Assembly: GCF_011762045.1 (NCBI RefSeq)
Contig: NZ_JAASQS010000010.1
Coordinates: forward strand, 62,001 to 126,000
Source: Rhizomicrobium electricum
Lineage (GTDB): Bacteria > Pseudomonadota > Alphaproteobacteria > Micropepsales > Micropepsaceae
Length of the DNA stretch: 64,000 nt
Reading direction: 5' to 3'
Positions 2,197 to 28,765 of the stretch are shown here, piece by piece. The notes under the pieces are model-generated. The model searched no databases. It worked only from the letters and a program-made list of their open reading frames with translations, and was not told where the DNA came from. Each line of letters begins with the position of its first letter. Position 1 is the first letter of the stretch. A program made the position numbers and the translations under genes.

Positions 2197-3849
2197 TTAG
2201 TTGCAAGCTGCCGTTTTCGGAGGAAGCTTGGGCGCGACGATGCCCACATTCCAGCTCCAGGCCTGATCGCCACTCGCATGGCGGCGGCAGACCACCTGCT
2301 CGACAAGATCGTACATGCCTCGCATGAGATGCGCGGACACCCTGGGCACTTCCTGAAATGCCATGAAGGCCGAAGCGGACCCGTAGGAAGGCCATGCCGG
2401 TGCGTTCGCCGCTTCCGGCTGTCCGGTGCGCGCGAAACTGATCCAATAGCCCATCATGGCATCAGACATTTCCCGCTCCTTTGTCGTTGGCGGGATTTTC
2501 GGCCAGTACATCGGGACGCGCTGGAGATCTCCAAACACATACGGCACTTCGCTGGAGTGGAAGGCGTGCAGACCGGCCGCATCCGCGGCGGGATAGCCGT
2601 GGTCCCAGATATAAAGGAACGCGGGTTGCCCCAAAGCCGTCTGGTTCCTTACCATCCGCTCGGCCGTCCAGCCGTAAAATGCATCGCGCGTGGTGGCGAG
2701 CATGCTCTCCCGCACATTGCTGCTGGGGTAGAGGCGCAGGAAATCTTCGGCCAGATCCTGGTAGCGATCCCGAATGATCGCCTCGTAATCCGCTGCGGAG
2801 GGTGGCGGCGGCGGCGGCAGAAGCACCGGAAGCGAGCGCACTTCACCACTGTTGAATCCAGCCAGAAGCGGCACGGGCGCCTGTTCGCCTTTGGCGAAGG
2901 TATCGACGAGCTGACGCGGCAGGATATGGCCGTCAACGGCGCCGATGGTCAGGAAGCCGGCCGCGACGGAGCCCTCCAACAGTTTATCCGCGTCCATCGT
3001 TCTCAGCGCAGCCATGTCCGGCACATGCAGGGCCGTGGTGAGATTGACGCCGATCTGCTCGGAGGATGGCGCCCCGTATTTCGCCTGCTTCAACTCGGGC
3101 GTTGATATCATGTAGCCGCTTTGCGAAATCGCCTTGGCGAACAGGCCGCGTGCCGCCGGCGACGCCATCAGATACATGACGGACAGACCACCCGCGGACT
3201 CACCGATAATGGTGACGTTGGCGGGATCGCCGCCGAACGCGGCGATATTACGCTTCACCCATTTGAGCGCCTCGATCTGATCGAGAAGACCATAATTGCC
3301 GGAAATATTGAGCGGAGATTCGGCGCTGAGTCCGGGATGCGCCAACCAGCCGAAGACGCCGAGACGATAGTTTATCGTCACGACGACGACGCCACGGGCT
3401 GCCAGCTTGGAACCCATGAAAAGCGGATATTGGCTTGACCCGCCGGTCAAAGAGCCTCCGTGGATCCAGAATAACACCGGCGCGTTCTTCGCATCTGCCG
3501 GGGCCCAGACATTCAATGTCAGGCAATCTTCGCTCAGCGGACCGACATCGGCCGAGTAAATGCTGACGGCCGCCTTGCTATGCGGTTGCATGCAGGCATT
3601 GCCGAAATCCGTGGCGCGCTTGACGCCAGTCCAGCGCGGCATCTCGACCGGTGCTTTCCAGCGCAAGGGACCGACCGGCGGCAAGGCATAAGGAATACCC
3701 TTGAAGACGTTGACGGCATCCTCGCCCGCCCCTTCCAGCGTACCGGCAGGAGCGTTCACGACCGGTGGCGTTGCGGCGCTCAAACCGGTGAAGGAAAGAC
3801 AAACAACCGCGACGGCTGAAGCGGTCAGACGACGAATAGCGCGACTCAT
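2197..3849 (-). CDS. Secreted type-B carboxylesterase
   Basis: Complete 550-residue carboxylesterase/lipase-type alpha/beta hydrolase. An N-terminal signal peptide (about residues 1-26) predicts export. The oxyanion-hole HGG is at 130-132, the nucleophile Ser218 lies in G-E-S-A-G, and likely triad partners are Glu336 (FNSGE) and His431 (FHSSE). A run of six prolines (345-350) sits in a surface loop. Its ATG overlaps the stop of the beta-lactamase-like gene (ATGA) and GAGGGAG lies upstream inside that gene, so translation is coupled. With its partial paralogue at the left edge, it implies repeated use of ester substrates by this operon. It might act on plant or xenobiotic esters, but the sequence does not show which. 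Confidence 0.93.
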   Translation of the reverse strand: MSRAIRRLTASAVAVVCLSFTGLSAATPPVVNAPAGTLEGAGEDAVNVFKGIPYALPPVGPLRWKAPVEMPRWTGVKRATDFGNACMQPHSKAAVSIYSADVGPLSEDCLTLNVWAPADAKNAPVLFWIHGGSLTGGSSQYPLFMGSKLAARGVVVVTINYRLGVFGWLAHPGLSAESPLNISGNYGLLDQIEALKWVKRNIAAFGGDPANVTIIGESAGGLSVMYLMASPAARGLFAKAISQSGYMISTPELKQAKYGAPSSEQIGVNLTTALHVPDMAALRTMDADKLLEGSVAAGFLTIGAVDGHILPRQLVDTFAKGEQAPVPLLAGFNSGEVRSLPVLLPPPPPPSAADYEAIIRDRYQDLAEDFLRLYPSSNVRESMLATTRDAFYGWTAERMVRNQTALGQPAFLYIWDHGYPAADAAGLHAFHSSEVPYVFGDLQRVPMYWPKIPPTTKEREMSDAMMGYWISFARTGQPEAANAPAWPSYGSASAFMAFQEVPRVSAHLMRGMYDLVEQVVCRRHASGDQAWSWNVGIVAPKLPPKTAACN

Positions 3850-7540: not shown

Positions 7541-7558
7541 TCACTCCCACTCGATGGT
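7541..7558. repeat. Left attachment site of the island (18-bp direct repeat)
   Basis: TCACTCCCACTCGATGGT is identical to 27221-27238 and is followed by non-guaA sequence. It is the scar copy of the guaA end created by site-specific integration. Confidence 0.85.
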
Positions 7559-13397: not shown

Positions 13398-16313
13398 TCA
13401 GTTCGCCTTGTTCAAGAAGGACAGATACGTGCGCAACTGGTCGAGCCAGCGTTGCGGCGCTGACAGCTTCGGTTTGGCGCCTGGCAATGGCGGCACGCCG
13501 GGAATGCCCTCGCAAACATCGCGGGTTGGATCAGGCCATTCGGCCTGCAGCAGCGGGTCGTTTTGGATTTCTGCAGCACTGAAACGGCGGCCGCCGCTGC
13601 CCAGAACAATATTGCAGGCTTCAGTTGCGGCTTGGGCCCAATCCTTCACATACAGCGAAGAGTCCCAATGCAATATCCTTCCGCTATAATCTGCGGATAC
13701 GATGCGGTGATCGTTCGGCAAAAACACGACGGTCACGACGGCGTCGGCATGCCCCTTCAACGGTTCGCCGATCTGCTTGCCGGTACGAGTGTCCCAGATG
13801 CGGATTGTATTGTCCCACCCCCCCGATACGATGCGGCTGCCGTCGGTCGAAAAAGCGACGGTTGAAACAGCTGCGGTGTGCCCCGTCAGTGGCGCGCCGA
13901 CCTGTTTTCCGGTGCGCGCATCCCAAAGACGTACAGTGTTGTCGCCACTTCCCGACACAACGCGACTGCCATCCGGCGAAAAAGCGACCGATTCGACAGG
14001 GCTGGTATGGCCGGTGAGGGGGGCGCCAATTTGTTTTCCGCTCCGCACATCCCAAATGCGAATGGCATTATCGATATCACCCGACACGAGATATCGACCG
14101 TCGGTCGAAAATGCGACGCTTGAGACTTCTTCGTCGTGCCCTGAGAGGGATGATCCGATTTGTTTTCCGGTATGAGCATTCCAAATAACAATGCTCGCGT
14201 CCCTTGACCCTGTTCCGGCCCCAGACCAATCCATGCCACTTCCCGACGCAATCAGGTTACCATCCCGTGAAAAGGCGATTGATCGTGCTCCACCTTTGAG
14301 TGCCGTAAGCGGCGATCCGACTTGACTCCGCGTACGGACATCCCAAATGCGCACGGTGGCATCCAGCCGTCCCACAAACATGCCGACCGGGTTTATCCGG
14401 CTGCCCGACGCGAGACGTTGTGCATCAGGAGAAATCGCTACCGAAGAAATCTCATCGGTATGCCCAATGAATGGTGCTCCGACTTGATGTCCGGTCTTTG
14501 TATCCCAGATACGGATACCGGCGTTGAAATCTCCGGACACAATTCGGCTGCCGTCAACGGAAAATGCAAAACAACTGAACGACGTTCCTTCCAGGAGCGT
14601 GGCGCTAATCTGCTTATCTATGCGGGCATCCCACAGACGGACTGTAGAATCCCAACTTCCAGATACGATCGTGCGGCCATCTGGTGAATAGCCTACAGAT
14701 CTAACTGTACTTGTATGCCCCGCAAGAGCATCTCCGATCTGTTTGCCTGTGTGCGCATTCCATATGCGGATGGTACCATCCCAACCCGCTGACACAATTT
14801 GGCTGCCGTCAGGCGAATAAGCGACCGAGCCAACTACGCCGGTGTGCCCTTCAAGAGGCGGCCCAATTTTTCGGCCGGTCTTTGCATCCCATATTCGGAT
14901 CACATTGTCGCCATCACCCGTCACAACGCGGCTGCCGTCAGGTGAAACAGTAAGGGATCTGGCAACACCTTCGTCCAGGATCAAGCCGATCTGCTTGCCG
15001 TTCGTCGAATTCCAGATTCGGATTGTTTTGTCGTCGCTCGCGGAAAAAATGCGACTGCCGTCCGGTGAATATATAACGGCATTTATATGGAATTTATGTC
15101 CTACCAGAGACATGGCTGCCGGTATGCCAGTGCGCCAATCCCAAATTTGGATATTGTGATCCAACCCTCCCGAGACTATGCGGCTGCCATCAGGTGAAAA
15201 CGAAATTGTACTGATCGACGATCTGCCCGTGAAGAACTCGCGTATCAGTTTGCCAGTCGCCACATTCCATACGCGAATAAAGCCGTCGCTGTTTCCTGCT
15301 GCTACCTGTGCTCCATCAAGCGAAAAGACGACTGATTCAACGATATTGGTGCGCGAAGTCGCCAATACGTGCGTTTGACTGCCGCTTTTCACATCCCAAA
15401 TGCGCAACGTGCCATCGGCACTACCGGTCGCAATACGTCTGCCATCGTGTGAAAAGACAACCGAATTAACAGAGCCAGTGTGTCCTTCTAGAACCCTGCT
15501 CTCATGCGTGGCATCGAGCGCACTGAGAAGGACATCATGATACTCCGGACCATTTGCCGGAGCGAGTTTCATACCGGCAAGGGCGTAGCGCATTGCGAGC
15601 AGGGGATCGCCGTGTTTCACAGCAGATTCGGCGGCTATTGCTACGAAGCGATTGAGCGCGTTGTTGGCTTTCTGGGTGTTTGCCTCCGATTGCTGCCAGA
15701 ACCAGCCCGCTGCCACAGCCATCCCCGCGAACACCGTCATGCCCAGCCCTGCCAGCGCTAAACGCTGCCGTTGCGCCCGTCTTTCGCGATGCACCAGATC
15801 GTCGGGGTTCACCCCCAACATTCCGGCGATGATTTTTATCGCGCCGTTTTCGCGCCCGTCTCTGCCGGAGCGCAGATCGGCATTGAGATTTTCGCCAGCC
15901 GCTTCCAACGCCGGGGGATAGCAACCGGGCGGATCGCCCTCGACGATCACCGGGATGATGCGGCCCTTGCCCAGCCGCCTGAACTCGGCAATCTCGTCGT
16001 TGACATACAGGCTCGCCGCCGCGTTCGGCGAACAGAGCACAATCAGCGCTTCGGAAGCGGCCAACGCTTCAAACAGCTTCGGCGCTAGCGGCTGGCCGGC
16101 GGGTAATTCCTCGCGGTCACGGAAAATACGTCCTAAGCGCCGGCCCCACAGCGCCCGCTTGCCGTATCCGGGCGCGACACCACCGGGAATGCTGTAGCGT
16201 TCAAGACACCGGTGCAGCCAAGCGGCGATTTCCTCGTCCTTATGGCTGTAACAAATATACGCCGCGTATTTGAACGCGCTCTTTTCGTTCTTCCCCGCCA
16301 CGCACGCCCCCAA
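13398..16313 (-). CDS. TIR domain - transmembrane helix - 14 WD40 repeats (copy 2)
   Basis: 971 residues if the TTG at 16313 is the start (GGGAAGAG lies just upstream); a GTG at 16301 is an alternative. The TIR domain begins at KYAAYICYSHKD and has SLYVNDEI with Glu107 in the catalytic-type position. The basic segment RRAQRQR precedes a single membrane helix (LALAGLGMTVFAGMAVAAGW), predicting N-in topology. Fourteen WD40 blades follow, several with near-identical IRIWD ends, again two seven-bladed propellers' worth. It is the most divergent of the three paralogues, with a shortened TIR-to-helix linker. It ends 4 bp before the RyR gene, the tightest coupling in the cluster, so these two may form the functional pair. 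Confidence 0.86.
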   Translation of the reverse strand: MGACVAGKNEKSAFKYAAYICYSHKDEEIAAWLHRCLERYSIPGGVAPGYGKRALWGRRLGRIFRDREELPAGQPLAPKLFEALAASEALIVLCSPNAAASLYVNDEIAEFRRLGKGRIIPVIVEGDPPGCYPPALEAAGENLNADLRSGRDGRENGAIKIIAGMLGVNPDDLVHRERRAQRQRLALAGLGMTVFAGMAVAAGWFWQQSEANTQKANNALNRFVAIAAESAVKHGDPLLAMRYALAGMKLAPANGPEYHDVLLSALDATHESRVLEGHTGSVNSVVFSHDGRRIATGSADGTLRIWDVKSGSQTHVLATSRTNIVESVVFSLDGAQVAAGNSDGFIRVWNVATGKLIREFFTGRSSISTISFSPDGSRIVSGGLDHNIQIWDWRTGIPAAMSLVGHKFHINAVIYSPDGSRIFSASDDKTIRIWNSTNGKQIGLILDEGVARSLTVSPDGSRVVTGDGDNVIRIWDAKTGRKIGPPLEGHTGVVGSVAYSPDGSQIVSAGWDGTIRIWNAHTGKQIGDALAGHTSTVRSVGYSPDGRTIVSGSWDSTVRLWDARIDKQISATLLEGTSFSCFAFSVDGSRIVSGDFNAGIRIWDTKTGHQVGAPFIGHTDEISSVAISPDAQRLASGSRINPVGMFVGRLDATVRIWDVRTRSQVGSPLTALKGGARSIAFSRDGNLIASGSGMDWSGAGTGSRDASIVIWNAHTGKQIGSSLSGHDEEVSSVAFSTDGRYLVSGDIDNAIRIWDVRSGKQIGAPLTGHTSPVESVAFSPDGSRVVSGSGDNTVRLWDARTGKQVGAPLTGHTAAVSTVAFSTDGSRIVSGGWDNTIRIWDTRTGKQIGEPLKGHADAVVTVVFLPNDHRIVSADYSGRILHWDSSLYVKDWAQAATEACNIVLGSGGRRFSAAEIQNDPLLQAEWPDPTRDVCEGIPGVPPLPGAKPKLSAPQRWLDQLRTYLSFLNKAN

Positions 16314-16454: not shown

Positions 16455-19331
16455 TCACCGGCATTGATCCCCAGTTTGGGGGATCATCCAAGCAAATAGC
16501 GGGCGCAAATGCGCATAGGCACGCGTGAGCACATCATCATTCTGCCGGTCGAGCGAATACCGGGCGCGCTCCTTTTCGGTGAGCACGCGACCTATTCTGG
16601 CGATGCGGGCATTGCTGTCGTCGATCAGTGCCTGGCAGCGCGGAGCAATCGGCCAGACACGGGCCGTTCTGTCGGATGAGGCCGTAACTATGTGCCTTCC
16701 ATCCGGCGAGAACACGGCGGCGTTGACATCATCGCCATGACCCTTCAGCTCCAGAAGAAGTTTTCCGCTTGCCGCATCCCAAAGGCGCACCGTTCTGTCG
16801 CTTGACGCGGTGACGATGCGCGTACCGTCGCGTGAGAAGTTTGCCGAATAGATGAAATTCTCATGGCCCCGCAACACGGCAAGCTGCGTTCCGTTGGCAG
16901 CATCCCAAACGCGCGCCGTCGCATCGGTTGACGCGGTAACGATACGCTTTCCGTCAGGCGAGAACGCCGCAAAGGTCACAAAATTATCGTGACCGCGCAG
17001 CACCATGAGTTCCTTGCCGCTCATGGCATCGACCACGCGTGCGGTCTTGTCCCACAACGCGGTGACGATGCGCTTTCCGTTTGGCGAGAACGTTGCATAG
17101 TTTACGGCGCTGCCGTGACCGCTGAGCACCAGAAGCTGCTTGTCACTCGCGGCATCCCAAACACGTGCGGTTTCGTCAACCGACGCCGTGATGACCCGCA
17201 TGCCGTCCGGAGAGAAGACGGCGGATGCGATGGGGGCTTCGTGCCCCTTGAGCACTATAATTTCATTTCCGGTGCTCGCGTCCCAAATGCGCGCGGTCGT
17301 ATCCGCAGATGCGGTGACGATACGCATTCCGTCAGGAGAGAAGGTGGCGAAAGTAACAGGACCCTGGTGGCCTTTGAGTACCAAAATCTGCTTGCCGCTG
17401 ACCGCATCCCAAAGGCGGGCCGTCGCATCTTCCGACGCCGTAATGATACGCCTGCCGTCCAGCGAATATGCGGCGGACTGAACCGTGTTCTCATGTCCCT
17501 TGAGGACTAAGAGCTGATTTTGGCTCACCACATCCCACAGCCTCACCGTCTTGTCATCCGAGGCGCTCACCACGCGCGCGCCATTCGGGGAGAAGGCTGA
17601 GGAATTTACGGTTTCCGCATGACCACGCAGCACCAAAAGCTGTTCTCCGCTTGCCGCGTCCCAGATACGCACGGTCTTGTCCGGTGAGGCGGTCACGATG
17701 CGCCGGCCGTCGCGCGAAAAGGCGGCCGAGATCACGGAAGCCTCGTGACCGCTGAGCATCGAGAGTTGCTTACCGCTTGCGGCGTCCCAGATGCGCGCGG
17801 TCTTATCGCCAGATGCGGTGACGATTCGCCTGCCGTCCGGCGAGAACGCGGCGGAATGAATGGTGAAGCTATGCCCTCTTAGGACCGCTATCTGTCTGCC
17901 GGTCGCGGCGTCCCAGATGCGCGCTGTTTGGTCAACCGAGCCGGTGACGATCCGCGTACCGTCCGGCGAGAACGCGGCGGACAAGACCTTATCTGCATGA
18001 CCGCCAAGCAACAATAGCTGCTTGCCGTTTGCCGCATCCCAAACGCGTGCGGTCTTGTCCCAAGATGCGGTGACGATGCGTTTGCCGTCCGGCGAAAAAG
18101 CGGCAGATTTTACGCAGTCGGCATGACCGCCAAGCAAAACGATTTGGCTGCCGCTCGTCGCACTCCAAATGCGTGCCGAGTTATCGCACGACGCGGTGAC
18201 GATGCGCTTTCCGTCCGGCGAATAGGCGGCAGATTCGACTCCGCTTGTGTGCCCCCTGAGTGTCAGGAGGTCCCGGCCGTTGGCGATATTCCAAATACGC
18301 GCGGTATTGTCCCAAGATGCGGTAACGATGCGCGTACCGTCTGGAGAGTAGGCGACGGAGTTGATGCCGCTGGTATGATCAAGCTGCGCCGAAACCTCTT
18401 GCGCTTCGCTCCAGTTTCGTCTGAGCTTTGGGTCGCTATTCAGGTCGGAGATTTCACGTAACTCGATCCATGCCTGACTGAGTGCAGCAAGTGCATCCAT
18501 CGACAACGGCCGTGATGGCGAATCCAGCCGCTCCGGCAAAGCCTTAAGCGCGAGCAACATCGCCAGCCCGGCATCGCCCGATGCGGTAGCTGTCTGCGAT
18601 TCATGCGCCAGGAAACTCGACTGCGAAATCAGCGATGCGTTACGTGTCTTTTCAGACGTGATCGCGAACAAAACGGATAAAACCAATAGGCTCGCGAGCC
18701 CTAGGACCACACTGCCGGAAATCATCACGCGTTTTCTGAACTGCGCGCGCTGTGCCTCCAAATCGCGTTGCTTAAGCGCGTCATAGCCGATGCCCACCAA
18801 GCCTGCGATCAGCTTGAGCTTGGCGTTCTGTTTGCCGTCGGCACTGGGGCGCGCATCCGCGGCAATTGGTTCGGTACGTTCCGCCGAGAGATTGCCATCG
18901 GACCCGAGCTTGAATTTCAGCGCTGGTGGAAAACACTCGCGTGAAGCAGTTTGCGGATCGCCGGCCGCACTCGGTTCGCCATCGACGATGACGGCGAGAA
19001 TGCGGTTCTCCCGCCCCATGCGCTTAAAAGCCAGGATTTCCTCGTTCACCCAATGGCTTTGCGCTGCATGAGAGGAGCATATGACGACCAAATAGGCGGA
19101 ATCGTTCAGCGCATTGACGATCTGCGAATTGAGATCGGCGGAGGAAGGAAGCTCATCACGGTCGCGAAAAATTGGATAGAGACGCGCTGGAACCGGCCCG
19201 TCGCGTCCGTCCGTACCGACGAGGCGTTTGGGAATCCGATAGGATTCGAGGGCCTTGTGCAGCCACGCGCCCCACTCCTTATCCCTATGGCTATAACTGA
19301 TAAATGCGCGATATTTGTAGCCTTGCCCCAT
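16455..19331 (-). CDS. TIR domain - transmembrane helix - 14 WD40 repeats (copy 3)
   Basis: 958 residues. The TIR domain occupies about 6-120 (YRAFISYSHRD, IFRDRDELPSSADL), with SHWVNEEI and Glu98 aligning with the SARM1-type catalytic Glu. A linker (AKLKLIAGLVGIGYDALKQ) leads to one membrane helix at about 203-224, preceded by RAQFRKR, so the TIR is predicted inside. A conserved helical segment (SGDAGLAMLLALKALP) then leads into 14 WD40 blades. The blades are unusually alike at DNA level with a period near 126 bp, which suggests recent amplification or gene conversion. The ATG at 19331 has a GGAG site. It is the first gene of the minus-strand cluster, and 141 bp separate it from copy 2, so a second promoter is possible. 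Confidence 0.88.
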   Translation of the reverse strand: MGQGYKYRAFISYSHRDKEWGAWLHKALESYRIPKRLVGTDGRDGPVPARLYPIFRDRDELPSSADLNSQIVNALNDSAYLVVICSSHAAQSHWVNEEILAFKRMGRENRILAVIVDGEPSAAGDPQTASRECFPPALKFKLGSDGNLSAERTEPIAADARPSADGKQNAKLKLIAGLVGIGYDALKQRDLEAQRAQFRKRVMISGSVVLGLASLLVLSVLFAITSEKTRNASLISQSSFLAHESQTATASGDAGLAMLLALKALPERLDSPSRPLSMDALAALSQAWIELREISDLNSDPKLRRNWSEAQEVSAQLDHTSGINSVAYSPDGTRIVTASWDNTARIWNIANGRDLLTLRGHTSGVESAAYSPDGKRIVTASCDNSARIWSATSGSQIVLLGGHADCVKSAAFSPDGKRIVTASWDKTARVWDAANGKQLLLLGGHADKVLSAAFSPDGTRIVTGSVDQTARIWDAATGRQIAVLRGHSFTIHSAAFSPDGRRIVTASGDKTARIWDAASGKQLSMLSGHEASVISAAFSRDGRRIVTASPDKTVRIWDAASGEQLLVLRGHAETVNSSAFSPNGARVVSASDDKTVRLWDVVSQNQLLVLKGHENTVQSAAYSLDGRRIITASEDATARLWDAVSGKQILVLKGHQGPVTFATFSPDGMRIVTASADTTARIWDASTGNEIIVLKGHEAPIASAVFSPDGMRVITASVDETARVWDAASDKQLLVLSGHGSAVNYATFSPNGKRIVTALWDKTARVVDAMSGKELMVLRGHDNFVTFAAFSPDGKRIVTASTDATARVWDAANGTQLAVLRGHENFIYSANFSRDGTRIVTASSDRTVRLWDAASGKLLLELKGHGDDVNAAVFSPDGRHIVTASSDRTARVWPIAPRCQALIDDSNARIARIGRVLTEKERARYSLDRQNDDVLTRAYAHLRPLFAWMIPQTGDQCR

Positions 19332-21213: not shown

Positions 21214-21255
21214 CCCTCACGGGATTTTTTCTCGTGAGGGCGCGCTTATACGTCG
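21214..21255. other. Candidate origin of transfer (oriT)
   Basis: CCCTCACG (21214-21221) and CGTGAGGG (21233-21240) form a perfect 8-bp inverted repeat with an 11-nt loop. It runs into AGGGCGCGCTTATACGTCG (21237-21255). The complement reads TATAAG-CGCGCCCT, close to the nick region of Ti/RSF1010 (MobQ) origins. The site lies between the divergent traC and traA genes, where Ti-type oriT is expected. Confidence 0.65.
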
Positions 21256-21290
21256 TGCCGACGTGCGCTTCGAAGCGTATCTGTGTGGCT

Positions 21291-24272
21291 ATGGCGATCT
21301 ACCACTTCTCGGCCAAGGTCATCAGTCGTGCCAACGGATCGAGCGCGCTGGCCTCGGCTGCCTATCGCTCCGCGGGGCGGCTCTATGATGAGCGCCTGGA
21401 TCGACATCACGATTTTACCGGCAAAAGCGGCGTGGTTCATTCCGAAGTATTGACGCCCGAGAATGTGCCGGATGAGTTCCACGATCGCGAGCAGCTCTGG
21501 AACGCCGTCGAAGCCTGCGAGAAGCGGCGCGATGCCCAGCTTGCCCGCGAGATTGAATTCGCCATTCCGCGCGAGCTCGATCAATCCCAAGGAATTGAAC
21601 TCGCGCGAGACTTTGTCCGGGACGAGTTCGTCTCGCGTGGCATGATCGCCGACCTCAATGTGCATTGGGATATCGGCGCGGACGGTCAGGCCAAGCCCCA
21701 CGCCCATGTCATGCTGACCATGAGGAGCGTCGACGAAACTGGATTCGGCGCCAAGGTGCGCGAATGGAACCGCAGCGAGCTTTTGGAGCATTGGCGGGAA
21801 GCCTGGGGCTCCCATGTCAATCAGCGGCTTCGGGAACTTGGAATCGAGGCGCGGATCGATCACCGCTCCTTTGAAGACCAAGGCATCGACCTTGAGCCCC
21901 AGCACAAGATCGGCCCGGCGGCCACGCGGATGGCCGGGGATGGGCTGCAATCGGAGCGGCTCGACGACCATCGCCAAATTGCCCGGGAAAACGGCGAGAA
22001 GATCATCGCCAGTCCGTCCATTGCCCTGGATGCCATTACCCATGGACAGGCAACCTTCACTCGGCGGGATTTGGCAATGTTTGCCCATCGCCATTCCGAC
22101 GGGCTGGAGCAGTTCAATGGCGTGATGGCGGCGGTGGAAGGCTCGCCGAAATTGGTCCGACTTGGGAGGGACGGCCACGGCGAAGATCGTTTCACCAGCC
22201 GGGATATGGTTCGGATCGAAGAGCGCCTTCACCGCTCGGCCGATCGTCTGGTCGGACGGGAACACCACGAAATCTCGGAATATGCCCGGGATCGGGCTTT
22301 GGCCGCGGCCGAAAAGAGGGGTTTGGTGCTGTCCGGGGAGCAGCGCCGGGCCCTACTCCATATTACGGACGGGCGAGACCTGGGCCTCGTCATCGGCTAC
22401 GCCGGAACTGGCAAATCGGCGATGTTGGGCGTGGCCAAAGAGGCGTGGGAGCATGCTGGGTTTGAGGTGCGCGGGATTGCACTTTCCGGTATTGCCGCCG
22501 AGAACCTGGAGGCCGGTTCCGGGATCGCCTCTCGCACCATTGCCAGTCTGGAGCACCAATGGGCGCAAGGCCGGGAGCTTTTGGACCGCAATCATGTGCT
22601 GGTGATCGATGAAGCCGGGATGGTTGGCTCACGGCAATTGGAGCGGGTTCTCTCAGAAGCCGAGCGCCGCGGCGCCAAAGTGGTTCTGGTTGGTGACCCC
22701 GAGCAGCTCCAGGCGATTGAAGCTGGCGCTGCCTTCCGGTCTCTCAGCGAGCGCCATCCCCATGTCGAGATCACCGAAATCCGCCGCCAGCGCGAGACCT
22801 GGCAGCGCGAAGCCACAAGGCATTTGGCGACCGGGCGGACCGACGAAGCGCTTCAGGCCTACCGCGACCGCGGCATGGTTCATGTCGAGCTGACACGCGA
22901 CGAGGCACGGGCCAAGCTCATCGAAAGCTGGGATCGAGACCGGCAAGCCTCTCCCGGCAAATCCCGCATCATACTCACCCACACCAATGAAGAAGTGCAA
23001 AGCCTCAACCAGTTGGCGCGGGAGAGGCTCCGGGAAGCCGGAAATCTAGGTGAAGATGTCGCCATTACGGTCGAGCGTGGGAAGCGAGACTTTGCGGCTG
23101 GCGACCGGGTGATGATGCTCAAGAATGAGCGCAGCCTTGGCATCAAGAACGGCACCCTTGCCACCGTCGAACGGGTCACCTCCTCCCATATGGACATCCG
23201 TTTGCATGACGGGCGGCAGGTCGGGTTCGACTTCAAAGACTATAACCAGCTCGATCACGGCTATGCCGCCACCATCCACAAGGCCCAAGGCGTCACGGTG
23301 GACCAGGTGCATGTGCTGGCAACACCGGGTTTGGATCGTCACGCTTCTTACGTGGCGCTGTCTCGTCATCGCGAGCGGGTGGACCTGCATTTGGGCCGTG
23401 ACGACTTCACCGACGACGACAAACTTGCTCGCGTTCTGTCGCGCGAGCGGGCCAAGGATATGGCGAGCGACTACGGCAGGGATGCGCGAGCCCAAGTTCG
23501 CGAAACGGACCGCGGCCAGTCGCGTGACATCTCCACCGCGGATCAGCACCGCCATCAGGTAACGCCGGAACAAAATCGGACGCGCGATGCCGGACAGCAG
23601 ACCGCCGAGACTAAGCGCGGATTGTTCGTGACCTTCCGGCCGCCAATGCCGCCGCCGGATCGGGGAATAGACTCGCATCGTGCCCCAGAACGCACGGCGG
23701 TTCCCAAAACGTTGGTCGGTGCGCCCGAACGGGCCGCCGAGCGAGATGCCGCCATTGGCCAATATGGCCGCGCGCGGACCGATATTGACCGCATGAGTGC
23801 GCGGCAACTGCCGGTGCTGCCGGAACAGGAACGCGCTCTCGAAAAAGCGCGAAGACGCCTCGACGAGGTGCGACCCAAACTGGCGGCCGATCTGGAAAGT
23901 GCGATCGCTCACGATCCCACGCTGCTTTCCGATGCCGCCAAAGGGCAGACAAACCGGATCATCCGGGCTCTTCAAGCCGAGGTCGAAATCCGCACCAATC
24001 CGGCGCTGCGCGCCGACCGGTTTGTCGCCGAATGGCAAGGGCTCTCGAAGGCGCACGATCGGCTAGAGCGGGCTTACGATTTTGAGGGTGCCAAGGCAGT
24101 ACGCGCCAACATGGCCGGGATGGCGAAATCCCTGGAGCGCGACCCGCAAGTCGAATCGATCCTGCGCAATCGAAAAATCGAATTGGGTCTTGGGGCACGG
24201 GAAGGACCGAGTATCGGCGCCGAGCTGATGGACCAGTTAGGCCGGGGCCGAAATCGGGGGCTTGGCTTGTGA
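21291..24272 (+). CDS. traA: Ti-type conjugative relaxase-helicase TraA
   Basis: 993 residues. The N-terminal MobA/MobL relaxase has Tyr25 (SAAYRSAG) as the likely nucleophile and the metal motif His125-x-Asp127 plus Pro-His137-x-His139 (KPHAHVML). It is followed by a RecD/TrwC-like helicase with Walker A GYAGTGKS (about 369-376), VIDEAGMVGS, VLVGDPEQLQAI, YAATIHKAQG and YVALSRHRERV. The C-terminal part is charged and probably contacts the coupling machinery. The ATG at 21291 starts exactly at the conserved MAIYHFSAK; upstream codons show no similarity. It would nick at oriT and unwind DNA for transfer. The length is near that of plasmid TraA proteins, so it looks intact. No mating-pair genes are nearby. 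Confidence 0.93.
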   Translation: MAIYHFSAKVISRANGSSALASAAYRSAGRLYDERLDRHHDFTGKSGVVHSEVLTPENVPDEFHDREQLWNAVEACEKRRDAQLAREIEFAIPRELDQSQGIELARDFVRDEFVSRGMIADLNVHWDIGADGQAKPHAHVMLTMRSVDETGFGAKVREWNRSELLEHWREAWGSHVNQRLRELGIEARIDHRSFEDQGIDLEPQHKIGPAATRMAGDGLQSERLDDHRQIARENGEKIIASPSIALDAITHGQATFTRRDLAMFAHRHSDGLEQFNGVMAAVEGSPKLVRLGRDGHGEDRFTSRDMVRIEERLHRSADRLVGREHHEISEYARDRALAAAEKRGLVLSGEQRRALLHITDGRDLGLVIGYAGTGKSAMLGVAKEAWEHAGFEVRGIALSGIAAENLEAGSGIASRTIASLEHQWAQGRELLDRNHVLVIDEAGMVGSRQLERVLSEAERRGAKVVLVGDPEQLQAIEAGAAFRSLSERHPHVEITEIRRQRETWQREATRHLATGRTDEALQAYRDRGMVHVELTRDEARAKLIESWDRDRQASPGKSRIILTHTNEEVQSLNQLARERLREAGNLGEDVAITVERGKRDFAAGDRVMMLKNERSLGIKNGTLATVERVTSSHMDIRLHDGRQVGFDFKDYNQLDHGYAATIHKAQGVTVDQVHVLATPGLDRHASYVALSRHRERVDLHLGRDDFTDDDKLARVLSRERAKDMASDYGRDARAQVRETDRGQSRDISTADQHRHQVTPEQNRTRDAGQQTAETKRGLFVTFRPPMPPPDRGIDSHRAPERTAVPKTLVGAPERAAERDAAIGQYGRARTDIDRMSARQLPVLPEQERALEKARRRLDEVRPKLAADLESAIAHDPTLLSDAAKGQTNRIIRALQAEVEIRTNPALRADRFVAEWQGLSKAHDRLERAYDFEGAKAVRANMAGMAKSLERDPQVESILRNRKIELGLGAREGPSIGAELMDQLGRGRNRGLGL

Positions 24273-24291
24273 ACATGATCTGGAGATGACC

Positions 24292-25032
24292 ATGACAGAT
24301 GGACCCGAGGTTTTGCCCAACGCAGTGACGCCAACACCGGCAACCCAAGAGCCGAAAGCTTCCCTCGCCGAAGATCCCGCGGCGGCGGCGTTCGAGGCAC
24401 TTCGTGAGGAAGTGGCGCTCGCCCGCCGCGCCGTTGCTGGTCTTGCTGCCGAACGCGCCACCATCCCCGATTACAGCGAAACCCTGGGACAGATTTTGAA
24501 AGCCTGCACCGCTGCGGCGTGGCACTTCAAAAAGCTCGGTGAGTTGCTAGGGTTGCACCTAACGCCGGAGAATATCGGTCGGCAAATTGATGATGCGGCC
24601 GAAAGCGCCAGGCGGGCCAATCATGCAGTGCTGACCGGCGCGAGCGCTGCGTTACAGCAGGCGACGCGGGACCTGAATAGCTATTTGCAGTCGGCGCGCA
24701 GCGCGAAGTCGCAGCGCATTTGGCTCGTCGCTACGGGTGCAGCGTGCCTCATCACCGGCATGATCCTCTGGGCGGTTATCGCAGGGCTTATAGTTCAGTC
24801 CCCTCCAGTCGATCATCGATCGCCTGAAGCAAAAGCCGCCGCGATTCTCGGTATGGAACAAACGGCGGCCGGAGAACATCTGATCCAAGCCTCCGCGCCC
24901 GCGCTTTGGAACGATATTGTTCTCGGCAATCGCATTGTTGTTGCTAACAGGCACGCGTTGGATGCCTGCCTGAAAAGCACCAGCAAGCAGCGCAAGCGCT
25001 GCGTGATCACAATGCCTGCGGCAGAACGATAA
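24292..25032 (+). CDS. DUF6118-like membrane protein linked to the relaxase
   Basis: 246 residues. The N-terminal half is helical and Ala/Glu-rich (EALREEVALARRAVAGLAAE) and continues to a single membrane helix around 145-170 (IWLVATGAACLITGMILWAV). A C-terminal tail of about 75 residues contains two cysteines. It resembles the DUF6118 proteins often found just downstream of TraA in alphaproteobacterial mobile elements; I assign the family from memory with moderate confidence. The ATG at 24292 is chosen because GGAG lies 6 nt upstream; ATG 24286 is also in frame. It starts 19 bp after traA, so it is probably in the same operon. Its role is unknown. Confidence 0.65.
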   Translation: MTDGPEVLPNAVTPTPATQEPKASLAEDPAAAAFEALREEVALARRAVAGLAAERATIPDYSETLGQILKACTAAAWHFKKLGELLGLHLTPENIGRQIDDAAESARRANHAVLTGASAALQQATRDLNSYLQSARSAKSQRIWLVATGAACLITGMILWAVIAGLIVQSPPVDHRSPEAKAAAILGMEQTAAGEHLIQASAPALWNDIVLGNRIVVANRHALDACLKSTSKQRKRCVITMPAAER

Positions 25033-25045
25033 TCGACCAATGCCG

Positions 25046-25177
25046 CCGTCGATCCGATCCAGGCAGAAGTTCCGCTTCCCACACACTGTCAAGACTGGCG
25101 CTTCGCGCCACCGCAGAGCGGCTCGCGGCCTTGACAGAGAGTGGGCAGCGGATAGTGGCTTGGGATCGGATCGACGG
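25046..25177. repeat. 132-bp interrupted palindrome able to form a T-shaped structure
   Basis: The outer arms CCGTCGATCCGATCC (25046-25060) and GGATCGGATCGACGG (25163-25177) are exact complements. After an 11-nt unpaired stretch on both sides, a second 22-bp stem with three mismatches pairs 25072-25093 with 25130-25151. The 36-nt centre contains two further small hairpins, TGGCGC-ttc-GCGCCA (25096-25110) and CCGC-aga-GCGG (25111-25121). It begins 14 bp after the DUF6118-like gene. It may be a replication or transfer origin, or a structured RNA. Confidence 0.75.
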
Positions 25178-25402: not shown

Positions 25403-25681
25403 ATGCCGGAGCCCGAGAAGATTTTACGAATACGAACGGTGCTGACCCGCACCGGTCTTAGCCGATCGACCATCTATCGCAAGATCGCCGAAGGCACGTT
25501 CCCCGCCCAGCTTAAGATCAGCACCAATGGCTCGGGCTGGCATGAATCCGACATCAATCGCTGGATCGCTAATCCCGCACGCTGGCGAGCCACAATTGAC
25601 AACGACAAATATTCCAAACGGGATGACAGAATAGACGCAAACGACGTAGTTCAGAGATCGTCATCCAGTTCATCGTCGTGA
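25403..25681 (+). CDS. AlpA-family excisionase-like regulator
   Basis: 92 residues. A MerR/AlpA-type winged helix reads LRIRTVLTRTGLSRSTIYRK, then IAEGTFPAQLKIS and WHESDINRWIANP, the standard AlpA pattern. Proteins of this family activate integrase expression or act as recombination directionality factors in P4-like elements. The ATG has GAGG 7 nt upstream. It converges on the integrase and overlaps its 3' end by 31 bp. Its run of seven serines at the C-terminus is the complement of the integrase's Asp/Glu-rich end, so it may be non-functional tail. Likely role: control of island excision. Confidence 0.85.
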   Translation: MPEPEKILRIRTVLTRTGLSRSTIYRKIAEGTFPAQLKISTNGSGWHESDINRWIANPARWRATIDNDKYSKRDDRIDANDVVQRSSSSSSS

Positions 25682-27000
25682 ATTTCGGAGGCACGTCGCT
25701 TCGCGTCGGCGATCAACTCCTTGGCGGTTTCGCCCCTCACCCAAGCATCGAGCATATCAGCCCAGCACTGCAGCATAACCTTCCGCTCGGCGAGATACCG
25801 GTTCACGTTGTAGATGGCCGCGATCCGGTTTCTGGGCGCGTGGGCCAAACTCATCTCAATCCAACGATCATCGAACTTGGCACGGTTCAGGCCAGTCGAA
25901 AACGTGCGGCGCAGGTCGTGAACGCCAAAGCTCTGAAAATCAGGATCAGTCACCCGGATACGCTCTACTACCGTGTCGATCACACGGTTGAGCGTGGCGT
26001 TGCTAATGGGCGTGTCGCTGTCGTATCGGCCGGGGTGCAGGTATCGGCTGGCACCGAACATGGTGCGGAATACCGTTAGAATGTCGAGCGCCTGATCGCT
26101 TAGCGGAACGACATGCGCCTTACCGGCCTTCATGCGCTCGGCTGGGATCGTCCAGCGCGCGGTGGCGAAGTCGATTTCCTTCCACGTGGCGTCGATGAAC
26201 TCCGACTTACGGACGCCGGTCAGCAGGACAAACTTCACCGCTAAGCGCAGCGTGGGCGCTGCCGATACATGATCCAAGGCTCCCAGGAACGCGCGGACCT
26301 CGGAAGGTGACAGGGCGCGCTCGCGCGGCTCGAACGTGGCGATGGCGCTGGTGCGGATCGACTCGGCCGGGTTGCTCACGTCCAGCCCGCATCCCTGGGC
26401 ATGGCGGAACACCAGTAACACGACCTCGCGAACATGCACGGCGACGGCCGGCCCACGCCTCTCTTTGACCTCGTCGCACAGATGTTTGAGGCGTTGTGGC
26501 GTCACCTCCCCCAGCTTGAGCTTCGAAAACTCTCCCGCGATGGCGCGATCATAAACCGATCGGCGCATCGCCAGGGTGCTGTCGGCCAGTTTCTCGGCCC
26601 CAGACTTAGGATCGGCTTTGTGCTTAAAATAGGCTTCCGCCCACCCACCGAACGTCAACGCCTTGGCTGATGCGGTGCGTTTCTCCACCTTGGCTTTTGA
26701 CGGCGACTCGCCCCGCTCGACCTGACGCCGAGCCCGCGCCAGCAGCGACCGTGCCTCCGCAAGCGACACCTCCATGCCGTAATCCAGCGCGTCGGGCGCC
26801 CGTGTCAGCTTGTGCGCCGACGCGGCGCTATATCGGCCGATAGTCAAGACCTCCTGCCGTCCATTCACCCGGTACTGATATCGGAACGAAACGACCCCGG
26901 TTGGGGTGACGGCCGCGTACATCCCGTCGCGGTCCGTCACCTTGTAAAGCTTGGCCCTCGGCTTGAGATTTTTCAGTTCTTTATCAGTGAGTTCGCTCAT
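25651..27000 (-). CDS. Tyrosine recombinase/integrase of the island
   Basis: 449-residue P4-type integrase. An N-terminal DUF4102-like arm-binding region (about 1-100) includes LYKVTDRDGMYAAVTPTG. Next come a SAM-like core-binding domain and the catalytic domain, with Arg264 (TGVRKSEF), His361-x-x-Arg364 (HDLRRTFS), His387 (LAHAPRN) and Tyr397 (AIYNVNRYL). All catalytic residues are present, so it looks functional. The ATG at 27000 fits the family N-terminus; the ORF extends upstream into the att region without similarity. It sits 221 bp from the guaA att site with its start facing it. It most likely catalyses integration into, and with the AlpA-like partner excision from, guaA. Confidence 0.93.
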   Translation of the reverse strand: MSELTDKELKNLKPRAKLYKVTDRDGMYAAVTPTGVVSFRYQYRVNGRQEVLTIGRYSAASAHKLTRAPDALDYGMEVSLAEARSLLARARRQVERGESPSKAKVEKRTASAKALTFGGWAEAYFKHKADPKSGAEKLADSTLAMRRSVYDRAIAGEFSKLKLGEVTPQRLKHLCDEVKERRGPAVAVHVREVVLLVFRHAQGCGLDVSNPAESIRTSAIATFEPRERALSPSEVRAFLGALDHVSAAPTLRLAVKFVLLTGVRKSEFIDATWKEIDFATARWTIPAERMKAGKAHVVPLSDQALDILTVFRTMFGASRYLHPGRYDSDTPISNATLNRVIDTVVERIRVTDPDFQSFGVHDLRRTFSTGLNRAKFDDRWIEMSLAHAPRNRIAAIYNVNRYLAERKVMLQCWADMLDAWVRGETAKELIADAKRRASEIHDDELDDDL

Positions 27001-27045
27001 AAATCCGCATCCGGTCGGGGGCGAACGGATACCATCAGGAGGAGC

Positions 27046-27105
27046 TGTTGGTACCGGAAGCCCGTTTCTCGACCATCCTGCGCCATACCAACATCGGTAC
27101 CAACA
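27046..27105. repeat. Inverted repeats next to the right attachment site
   Basis: TGTTGGTACCG (27046-27056) and CGGTACCAACA (27095-27105) are perfect 11-bp complements, with an extra ATACCAAC at 27085-27092 between them. They lie between the integrase start and the att core, so they are candidate recombinase or excisionase binding sites. Function is inferred. Confidence 0.5.
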
Positions 27106-27220
27106 AAGTGGCTCGGTTGGGGTGACATGCAGCGACACGGGGTGGAAAAAATAATCCTTGTCAGTAAACGAGTTCGTGCGATTTCCGGCACGGAGCGGGA
27201 TGGTCTGAAACCACCTTAAT

Positions 27221-27238
27221 TCACTCCCACTCGATGGT
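27221..27238. repeat. Right attachment site (18-bp direct repeat, end of guaA)
   Basis: TCACTCCCACTCGATGGT covers the guaA stop codon and the five codons before it. It is identical to 7541-7558. The recombination leaves the GuaA C-terminus unchanged. Confidence 0.85.
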
Positions 27239-28765
27239 TCCCGGCGGCTTCGAGGTGATGTCGTAGCAGACACGATTGATGCCCTTGACCTCGTTGACGA
27301 TACGGGTCGAGACGCGGGCGAGGAAATCGTGGCCGAAGGGATAGAAGTCGGCGGTCATGCCGTCGGATGAGGTGACGGCGCGCAGCGCGCAGACGTAATC
27401 GTAAGTGCGGTCGTCGCCCATCACGCCCACGGTCTTGACCGGCAGCAGCACCGCGAACGCCTGCCAGATTTCGTCGTAGAGACCGGCGGCGCGGATCTCT
27501 TCGAGATAGATGGTATCGGCCTTGCGCAGGATCTCGAGTTTCTCGCGCGTGATCTCGCCCGGAATGCGGATGGCGAGACCGGGGCCAGGGAAGGGATGGC
27601 GGCCGACGAAGGCTTCGGGCAGGCCAAGCTCGCGGCCGAGCGCACGCACTTCGTCCTTGAAGAGTTCGCGCAACGGCTCGACCAATTTCATCTTCATGTG
27701 CGCCGGCAGGCCGCCGACATTGTGATGGCTCTTGATCGTCGCCGACGGGCCGCCCGTGGCCGAGGTGGATTCGATCACGTCGGGATAGAGTGTGCCTTGC
27801 GCCAGGAACTCGGCGCCGCCCACTTTTCCGGCCTCGTAATCGAACACGTCGATGAAGCCCTTGCCGATGATCTTGCGCTTCTTTTCGGGGTCGCTGACGC
27901 CGTGAAGCTGTTCGAGGAACATGTCGGAGGCATCGGCATGCAAGAGCGGAATGTTGTAGTGGCCGCGGAACAGGCTGACCACCTGTTCGCTTTCGCCCGC
28001 ACGCATCAAACCGGTGTCGACATAAATGCAGGTGAGCTGGTCGCCGATGGCCTCGTGGATTAACACCGCCGCGACGGAGGAATCGACGCCGCCGGAGAGG
28101 CCGCAGATCACCTTACCTTTGCCGACCTGGGCGCGAATGCGGGCGATGGCCTGTTCCTTGAAGGCCCGCATATTCCAGTCGGGTTTGATGCCGGCAATGC
28201 CGACGACGAAGTTGCGCAGGATTTCGATGCCGCGCGGGGTGTGCGCCACTTCGGGGTGGAACTGCACGCCGTAAAACTTGCGCGCCTCGTCGGCGATGAC
28301 GGCGTAGGGCGAATTCTCGCTGGTCGCCACCACTTCGAAGGCCGGCGGGATCGAGACGATCTTGTCGCCATGGCTCATCCACACGGGCTCGCGGCCGGAC
28401 GGGTCGCCGAGACCAGCGAGCAGCGGCGACTGCTTGCCGATCACGATGTCGGCGCGGCCGAACTCGCGGGCATGACCACCTTCGACGCGCCCGCCGAGCT
28501 GGGTCACCATCGTCATTTCGCCGTAGCAGATGCCGAGCACCGGAACGCCTGCCGTGAACACGCTTTCCGGCGCCCGCGGAGAACCGTCCGCGTGCACGCT
28601 CATCGGCCCGCCGGACAGGATGATGGCTTGCGGCTTCTCCGCCAGCGCGGCCTCCGCCTTGTTGAACGGAACGATCTCGCAATAGACGCCGATCTCGCGC
28701 ACTCGCCGCGCGATCAACTGGGTGACCTGAGAGCCGAAGTCGAGAACGAGGACGGGAGCGGACAT
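27221..28765 (-). CDS. guaA: GMP synthase (glutamine-hydrolysing)
   Basis: 514 residues, normal length. It makes GMP from XMP using ATP and glutamine in purine synthesis. The class I glutamine amidotransferase domain has Cys80 (LGICYGE) and the His/Glu pair in [11 protein letters not shown]. It is followed by the ATP-pyrophosphatase loop SGGVDSS and the C-terminal dimerisation domain ending [12 protein letters not shown] precedes the ATG. Gene order guaB-rsmB-guaA on one strand puts both GMP-branch enzymes in one unit. Its final 18 bp are the island attachment core, so the gene stays intact after insertion. Confidence 0.98.

Follow-up and report, generated by a model that had tools for sequence, protein, structure and literature searches.

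What does a 132-bp palindrome do inside an integrated mobile element? The question is raised by a 64,000-nucleotide stretch of the Rhizomicrobium electricum genome (contig NZ_JAASQS010000010.1, positions 62,001 to 126,000; here called the window and numbered from its first base), in which a nearly symmetric sequence at 25046–25177 is predicted to fold into a stem crowned by two small hairpins, giving a T-like shape. The original prediction for this locus, made from the sequence alone, had likened the palindrome to viral terminal hairpins and had proposed that it might be a replication origin of the excised circle, a single-strand origin, or a structured RNA. We find that it belongs to a family of T-shaped hairpins that is widespread in the mobile DNA of alphaproteobacteria and apparently undescribed. 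No description of such a T-shaped element was recognised in the literature covered, which consisted of openly licensed PubMed Central papers, so that this negative does not prove the lack of an earlier description.

Results

Fold and conservation of the palindrome

In RNA folding the palindrome reached a minimum free energy (MFE) of −83 kcal/mol, compared with −48.2 ± 3.7 kcal/mol for 200 dinucleotide shuffles (z = −9.39; 0 of 200 shuffles were as good), and it was the top-scoring element when the window was scanned for long palindromes, which bears out that the structure is real. Only one other long palindrome, at ∼51393 with a score of 22, exceeded the scan cut-off. The outer arms, 25046–25060 and 25163–25177, are 100% complementary over exactly 15 nt, as had been proposed. 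A symmetric 11-nt bulge had been placed between the outer and inner stems; a loop is present there, but pairing in the MFE structure extends the outer arm beyond the exact 15 nt and so leaves an internal loop of 6 and 5 nt. Similarly, the inner stem described as 22 bp with three mismatches retains the three mismatches but occupies 23 positions in the MFE structure, 20 of them paired. Both predicted apical hairpins are in the MFE fold, P2 (TGGCGC-TTC-GCGCCA, 25096–25110) and P3 (CCGC-AGA-GCGG, 25111–25121), the pairing of P3 differing slightly from the form given here. They are enclosed by stem P1, with a conserved GTCAAG on its 5′ side (25088–25093) and a conserved CTTGAC on its 3′ side (25130–25135). 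The inner stem and T-shaped tip together make up an inner 88-nt unit (25068–25155; this unit, P1, P2, and P3 are given on the plus strand), which is the part common across Alphaproteobacteria. A covariance model of these inner 88 nt, termed R1, matches the window unit at 72.9 bits, a score obtained with a model that was built including that unit.

The sequence of the tip (GTCAAGG, P2, P3, and GCCTTGAC) is conserved across 56 copies and that of the stem far less so, the shared shape being GTCAAGG, two small hairpins, and CCTTGAC around a three-way junction. The 56-copy alignment comprises 43 of the 57 stretches found with a tip pattern (44 sequences) together with 12 copies from other loci. Fourteen stretches were left out: L042, L065, and L076 are the same contigs as L034, L024, and L022, and the other 11 either did not pass a filter on pattern, energy, and edges or duplicated another copy exactly. 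Among those omitted, L054, L069, L083, and L088 are genuine and were included in the count of gene contexts given below; the T-shaped stem is absent from L056, L066, and L081, which were excluded from that count too. When the 13 copies of the window type were aligned, 14 of 45 pairs had changes on both sides, and 95.2% of the cells were paired, compared with 88.4% when the letters of the 3′ side were shuffled and at most 46.5% when the arms were slid against each other. Conservation in related islands and compensatory changes had been named as checks by the original prediction; the palindrome is kept in related islands, and its stems covary. Because template switching between the arms could also give double changes, the covariation shows that the symmetry is kept but not by itself why.

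Distribution of the element

The R. electricum genome contains three copies of the palindrome. Matches were obtained in 10 of 195 genomes of relatives, its own included, all of the same genus, and in L022 and L023 two inverted copies ∼4.4 to 4.6 kb apart flank a relaxase/DUF6118 module. The 57 tip-pattern stretches, found by searching one genome per species, were mostly titled Alphaproteobacteria or unspecified Proteobacteria; those titled otherwise were the stemless L066 (Nocardioides) and L081 (Hylemonella), L088 (a metagenome-assembled genome of Binataceae), and L090. Among 387 genomes of the class R1 matched 5, one of them R. electricum; it also matched 6 of 43 genomes of one order and 1 of 23 of another, and it located 1 to 3 places in each of 29 genomes known to carry the element. 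At this copy number, with three places in its own genome, we rejected the possibility that the palindrome is a repeat of the repetitive extragenic palindromic (REP) kind. The element resembles REP sequences and bacterial interspersed mosaic elements in being an intergenic palindrome that is often near gene 3′ ends, but it differs from them in its low number of places and in lying mostly beside mobility genes.

Among plasmid records, no match was obtained with the window palindrome as query and six with its relative L036 as query; the latter query gave no match in phage records. There were no exact tip matches in viral contigs. The outer-arm pattern was found in 81 stretches of viral contigs, 80 of which were listed as loci, and we take these to be chance occurrences because none of the 80 matches R1. 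On these three grounds a viral or phage origin was rejected. The terminal repeats of parvoviruses such as adeno-associated virus are likewise T-shaped, with a stem bearing two apical arms, but the palindrome is internal to its island rather than terminal and no viral relatives were found, so the comparison to a viral terminal hairpin is not supported. Membership in a known RNA family was also rejected, as no Rfam match reached the gathering score and the weak matches were to eukaryotic RNA families, far under threshold.

A larger cloverleaf on plasmids

R1 weakly matches bigger cloverleafs in L213 (4145–4265 and 4695–4815) and L201, which have the same stem and first two hairpins; further cloverleafs are located in L303 to L315. 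Three of 15 cloverleaf loci were recovered by R1 at E < 0.05 (1.8 × 10⁻⁴ for L308, a plasmid region, then 0.007 and 0.02), which makes common descent of the cloverleaf and the small form plausible, not proven. The cloverleaf covaries as well, with double-sided changes in 20 of 36 pairs. By BLAST it is present on 89 plasmid records, 63 of them typed as conjugative, and its gene context was taken from 13 of the 89, of which L303 and L305 are nearly the same. In all 13 regions the small gene next to the cloverleaf is transcribed away from it and has its 5′ end 42 to 85 bp from the BLAST match; the one pair of these downstream small proteins that was compared showed no similarity. An ArdC-like/zincin gene is found in seven and a DUF736 gene in eight of the 13 regions, while psiB, ssb, and methylase genes are each found in single regions. 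Nine regions were scanned for a Ti-type origin of transfer (oriT) motif, which was located between traA and traC in four (L304, L307, L308, and L314); in these four this places the cloverleaf on the leading side, and the inferred transferred strand (T-strand) is the template of the small gene. The motif was not found in the other five scanned regions, although L309 has traA and traC.

Strand preference of folding

Both strands of each copy were folded without imposed structure using RNA and DNA parameters. A stricter pattern selected 62 distinct copies, and the strand test took in the 42 of these that have, no more than 2.5 kb away, a recombinase or AlpA gene pointing away from the element. 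For copies linked to a large serine recombinase (LSR) gene, the template strand of that gene was the more stable one in 33 of 34, whether RNA or DNA parameters were used, and this bias holds in both tip orientations (13 of 14 and 20 of 20). For the cloverleafs, the template strand of the next gene gave the better fold in 15 of 15 cases; the wobble cells on that strand numbered 41 G-U versus 6 A-C, a count from a structure predicted for the same strand, which favors G-U. The relaxase template strand folded better in 22 of 28 relaxase-near copies (DNA parameters), with L022, the second copy of L023, L292, and three TrwC-linked copies as the six exceptions. Results for IS110-linked copies were mixed, the sense strand being better in four of five with DNA and two of five with RNA parameters. 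As judged by these predicted folds, an RNA of message sense is disfavored for the LSR-linked and plasmid forms, which leaves single-stranded DNA or an opposite-sense RNA. On the window copy itself the strand comparison gives no indication. Folding of the template strand in the cloverleaf and LSR-linked copies fits a signal acting on transferred single-stranded DNA, in the manner of the single-strand promoters and initiation sites (Frpo/ssi) of F-type plasmids.

Gene context of the small form

The context of the small form was tabulated for 77 copies, a set that includes two copies of one insertion sequence (L216 and L217) and one copy, L063, that failed the alignment filter. A gene for a recombinase, AlpA, a relaxase, or an IS110 transposase lies within 6.5 kb in 68 of them, with an LSR in 45 and a relaxase in 30. 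The relaxases are of three kinds: MobA/MobL, VirD2-like with DUF3363, and TrwC. In 34 of the 77 copies a gene 3′ end lies within 35 bp of the estimated element edge, one of these being an overlap with an LSR match. The genes ending there mostly encode DUF6118, DUF3363-type relaxases, TrwC, or TumA, and also RlxS, IS110 transposase, or TraD. A position downstream of DUF6118, named in the original prediction, is correct for the window and 3 of the 76 other copies; the rest adjoin other genes. We also rejected the idea that the element is the fixed partner of one relaxase family, since the small form was found in 2 of 27 relaxase loci (∼1.5-kb flanks), both from the R. electricum genome itself.

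TumE, TumA, and LSR genes occur together with the element in 11 loci, several of which can be aligned across the whole module. L033 has a PemK/MazF-type gene between the palindrome and the LSR, and its similarity to L034 is confined to about −20 to +85 around the tip, the adjoining DNA not being alignable on either side. In genome G160, three nearly identical IS110-family elements of ∼1.3 kb (L216, L217, and L218) carry the hairpin between the end of the transposase gene and the end of the element; these insertion sequences are apparently inserted in a REP-like palindrome. The hairpin also lies beside IS110 transposase matches in two other genomes (L228 and L229). Separately, ∼55 bp of conserved sequence are found at a variable distance from the palindrome in L032, L033, L034, L048, L054, L072, L079, and L088. 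One of its frames reads ...DDDEHYVYAIAL-stop, and the sequence is possibly an attachment site within a gene end.

The island and its candidate origin of transfer

The palindrome is inside an island, as the original prediction had stated. This integrated, mobilizable element of ∼19.7 kb is flanked by an 18-bp direct repeat of the guaA 3′ end, and these repeats are probably its ends, with candidate attL at 7541–7558 and candidate attR at 27221–27238 (both plus strand). At the right end the order is a leftward TraD-like gene, a rightward relaxase-helicase gene, DUF6118, the palindrome, AlpA, a leftward integrase gene, and guaA. The relaxase-helicase (21291–24272, plus strand, with the start codon inferred from the N-terminus MAIYHF) is a MobA/MobL protein, similar to Ti TraA, that also has an AAA_30 domain. 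The DUF6118 gene (24262–25032, plus strand) ends 13 bases before the palindrome, and the gene for the AlpA-family regulator (25403–25681, plus strand) follows ∼225 bp after it; the tyrosine integrase is encoded at 25651–27273 on the minus strand. DUF6118 is also listed beside TraA, MobC-like, and TraG genes in the gene table of a report on a Bosea plasmid (PMC10413263).

A candidate oriT precedes the relaxase gene at 21238–21276 (plus strand). Its sequence, starting GGGCGCGCTTATACGTCG, resembles what we take to be the nic region of Ti and RSF1010, and GGGCGCGCTTATACGTCG is kept before the relaxase in relatives (L022, L023, L024, L026, L031, L045, L050, L082, L089, and L190). When the nic motif was scanned for with up to three mismatches, 21238 was the sole match in the window and there was none in the palindrome. 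If nicking has the polarity that we assume, it is the bottom strand of the window that is transferred, the template of both the relaxase and AlpA genes.

Elsewhere in the island, the cargo includes two large minus-strand open reading frames at 13398–16313 (971 aa) and 16455–19331 (958 aa), with repeats of at least 15 bases inside and between both. Near the left end of the window, 79–730 and 3032–3683 hold stretches repeated at a constant offset of 2953 bp, which suggests duplicated genes.

Discussion

We tentatively propose, with a probability of about 0.4, that the palindrome acts as a structure-dependent signal whenever a mobile element has one of its strands in single-stranded form, a function that we infer from its fold, placement, and relatives. 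The incoming strand would fold into the hairpin in the recipient, a host primase or RNA polymerase might take the hairpin as a duplex-like entry point, and second-strand synthesis, recombinase- or AlpA-side transcription, or both could then start on single-stranded DNA, as with Frpo/ssi in F-type plasmids. The proposal is supported by the covariation of the stem, by the better fold of the template strand in the LSR-linked copies and cloverleafs, by the frequent position of the element with a mobility or antitoxin gene ending on one side and a recombinase or AlpA gene starting on the other, and by the inferred T-strand of the window being the AlpA template. Among the roles suggested earlier, a single-strand origin or signal is the one best favored by strand polarity in the relatives, but that polarity is lacking in the window's own group: the AlpA-linked copies have no consistent bias, the template strand being better in three of eight with RNA parameters and in five of eight, plus one tie, with DNA parameters.

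Several other observations weigh against this proposal. The three TrwC-linked copies favor the opposite strand, and in the inverted second copies of L022 and L026 the better fold belongs to the strand inferred not to be transferred. The element is also present, at the transposase 3′ end, in insertion sequences of the IS110 family, which are not conjugative. Within the island the palindrome would enter late, after ∼15.8 of 19.7 kb, and not in the leading region. Both arms of the small form retain a CTTGAC-like sequence, which resembles the alphaproteobacterial −35 hexamer, and no convincing −10 box was recognised by eye in the window and its relatives, which weakens a promoter reading. When copies were pooled by tip orientation (55 of the 56 had enough flank) there was no wobble bias, with 49 G-T versus 44 A-C. 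A bias emerged once the copies were grouped by gene orientation, and not before; the strand rule is therefore post hoc, formed after the data were seen, and the copies are related. For independent wobble events in the small palindromes, the ratio varied with the clustering used, from 31:7 down to 14:7 (p = 0.0001 to 0.19); with one position left out it ranged from 18:7 to 13:7.

The covariation and wobble polarity would be the same for single-stranded DNA and for an RNA of the same strand. They would thus equally suit a structured non-coding RNA whose transcription leads away from the recombinase, that is antisense to the last part of the upstream gene, and that regulates the relaxase, antitoxin, or recombinase; such an RNA would account for the inverted second copies and for the IS110 carriers as well. 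The structured RNA raised by the original prediction is in this respect partly retained, since the sense of the neighboring genes is disfavored in the LSR-linked copies and cloverleafs but the opposite sense remains. We nevertheless consider a regulatory RNA somewhat unlikely, because it has no Rfam match at the gathering score, no promoter for it has been established, and the compared pair of small proteins beside the plasmid cloverleafs is unrelated, which favors a general signal. An element acting in the message-sense RNA, as an insulator or terminator where the mobility-module transcript ends, would account for the many gene 3′ ends close to the element edge. This is quite unlikely: the stem in the window is not followed by a T-run, the strand of mRNA sense folds less well in LSR-linked copies, the preference in IS110-linked copies is mixed, and a three-way tip conserved in sequence is not expected of a terminator.

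The element could instead be a small hitch-hiking palindrome, like a miniature inverted-repeat transposable element, with no function for the element that carries it and a symmetry maintained by template switching between the arms. L033 and L034, with flanks unrelated right up to the inner unit, fit such mobility, as does carriage by unrelated elements including the IS110 copies of G160. The occurrence at only 1 to 3 places in each of 29 genomes, the TumE-TumA-LSR company in 11 loci with DNA alignable across the module, the conservation of the tip in sequence, and a strand bias that tracks gene orientation in LSR-linked copies nonetheless make this explanation unlikely. A double-stranded function, as a cruciform or an inverted protein-binding site such as a replication origin of the excised circle, gains from the near symmetry of an element of which both strands fold well, from its frequent position beside recombinase genes, and from the lack of strand bias in the window's own group; it conflicts with the strand polarity of the LSR-linked and cloverleaf sets, and no replication initiator was found among the nine neighboring proteins scanned, so that we hold it to be very unlikely. 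That the palindrome is itself the oriT of the island, as its closeness to the relaxase gene might suggest, is scarcely credible given the separate, conserved Ti/RSF1010-like nic region before the relaxase, 3.8 kb away, and the sharing of the palindrome by elements with MobA/MobL, VirD2-like, and TrwC relaxases. A candidate Ti/RSF1010-type (MOBQ) oriT is present beside a TraA-like relaxase in this island, as in several relatives, and it is distinct from the palindrome in sequence and position.

A structure-dependent signal on single-stranded DNA would have known counterparts. The single-strand origin of rolling-circle replicons is a hairpin that starts complementary-strand synthesis, to which our element is similar in concept; the tip of our element has no fixed orientation relative to the relaxase. 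The Frpo/ssi single-strand promoters and initiation sites of F-type plasmids were reportedly treated by Masai and Arai in 1997. Frpo promoters fold to mimic duplex DNA, and the leading-region genes are encoded for transcription from the transferred strand, according to the account in PMC11541004. The T-shaped element and cloverleaf share with these a long folded hairpin that could mimic duplex DNA, here on the strength of fold predictions, and the plasmid cloverleaf lies upstream of genes templated by the inferred T-strand where oriT was located (four of nine regions). They differ in having a three-way or four-way tip and no visible −10, and the small form differs further in lying beside recombinase and AlpA genes and in IS110 elements and, in the island, far from the leading side.

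To our knowledge, early gene expression and DNA priming after the entry of alphaproteobacterial plasmids and islands have been little explored compared with F. The word "Alphaproteobacteria" is absent from the main text of the Frpo paper (PMC11541004). An island element that is conserved, low in copy number, and structure-selected, and that has a larger relative on plasmids of the Ti type, offers a concrete target for testing these steps, and it provides a marker by which mobile elements of rhizobia and sphingomonads can be located.
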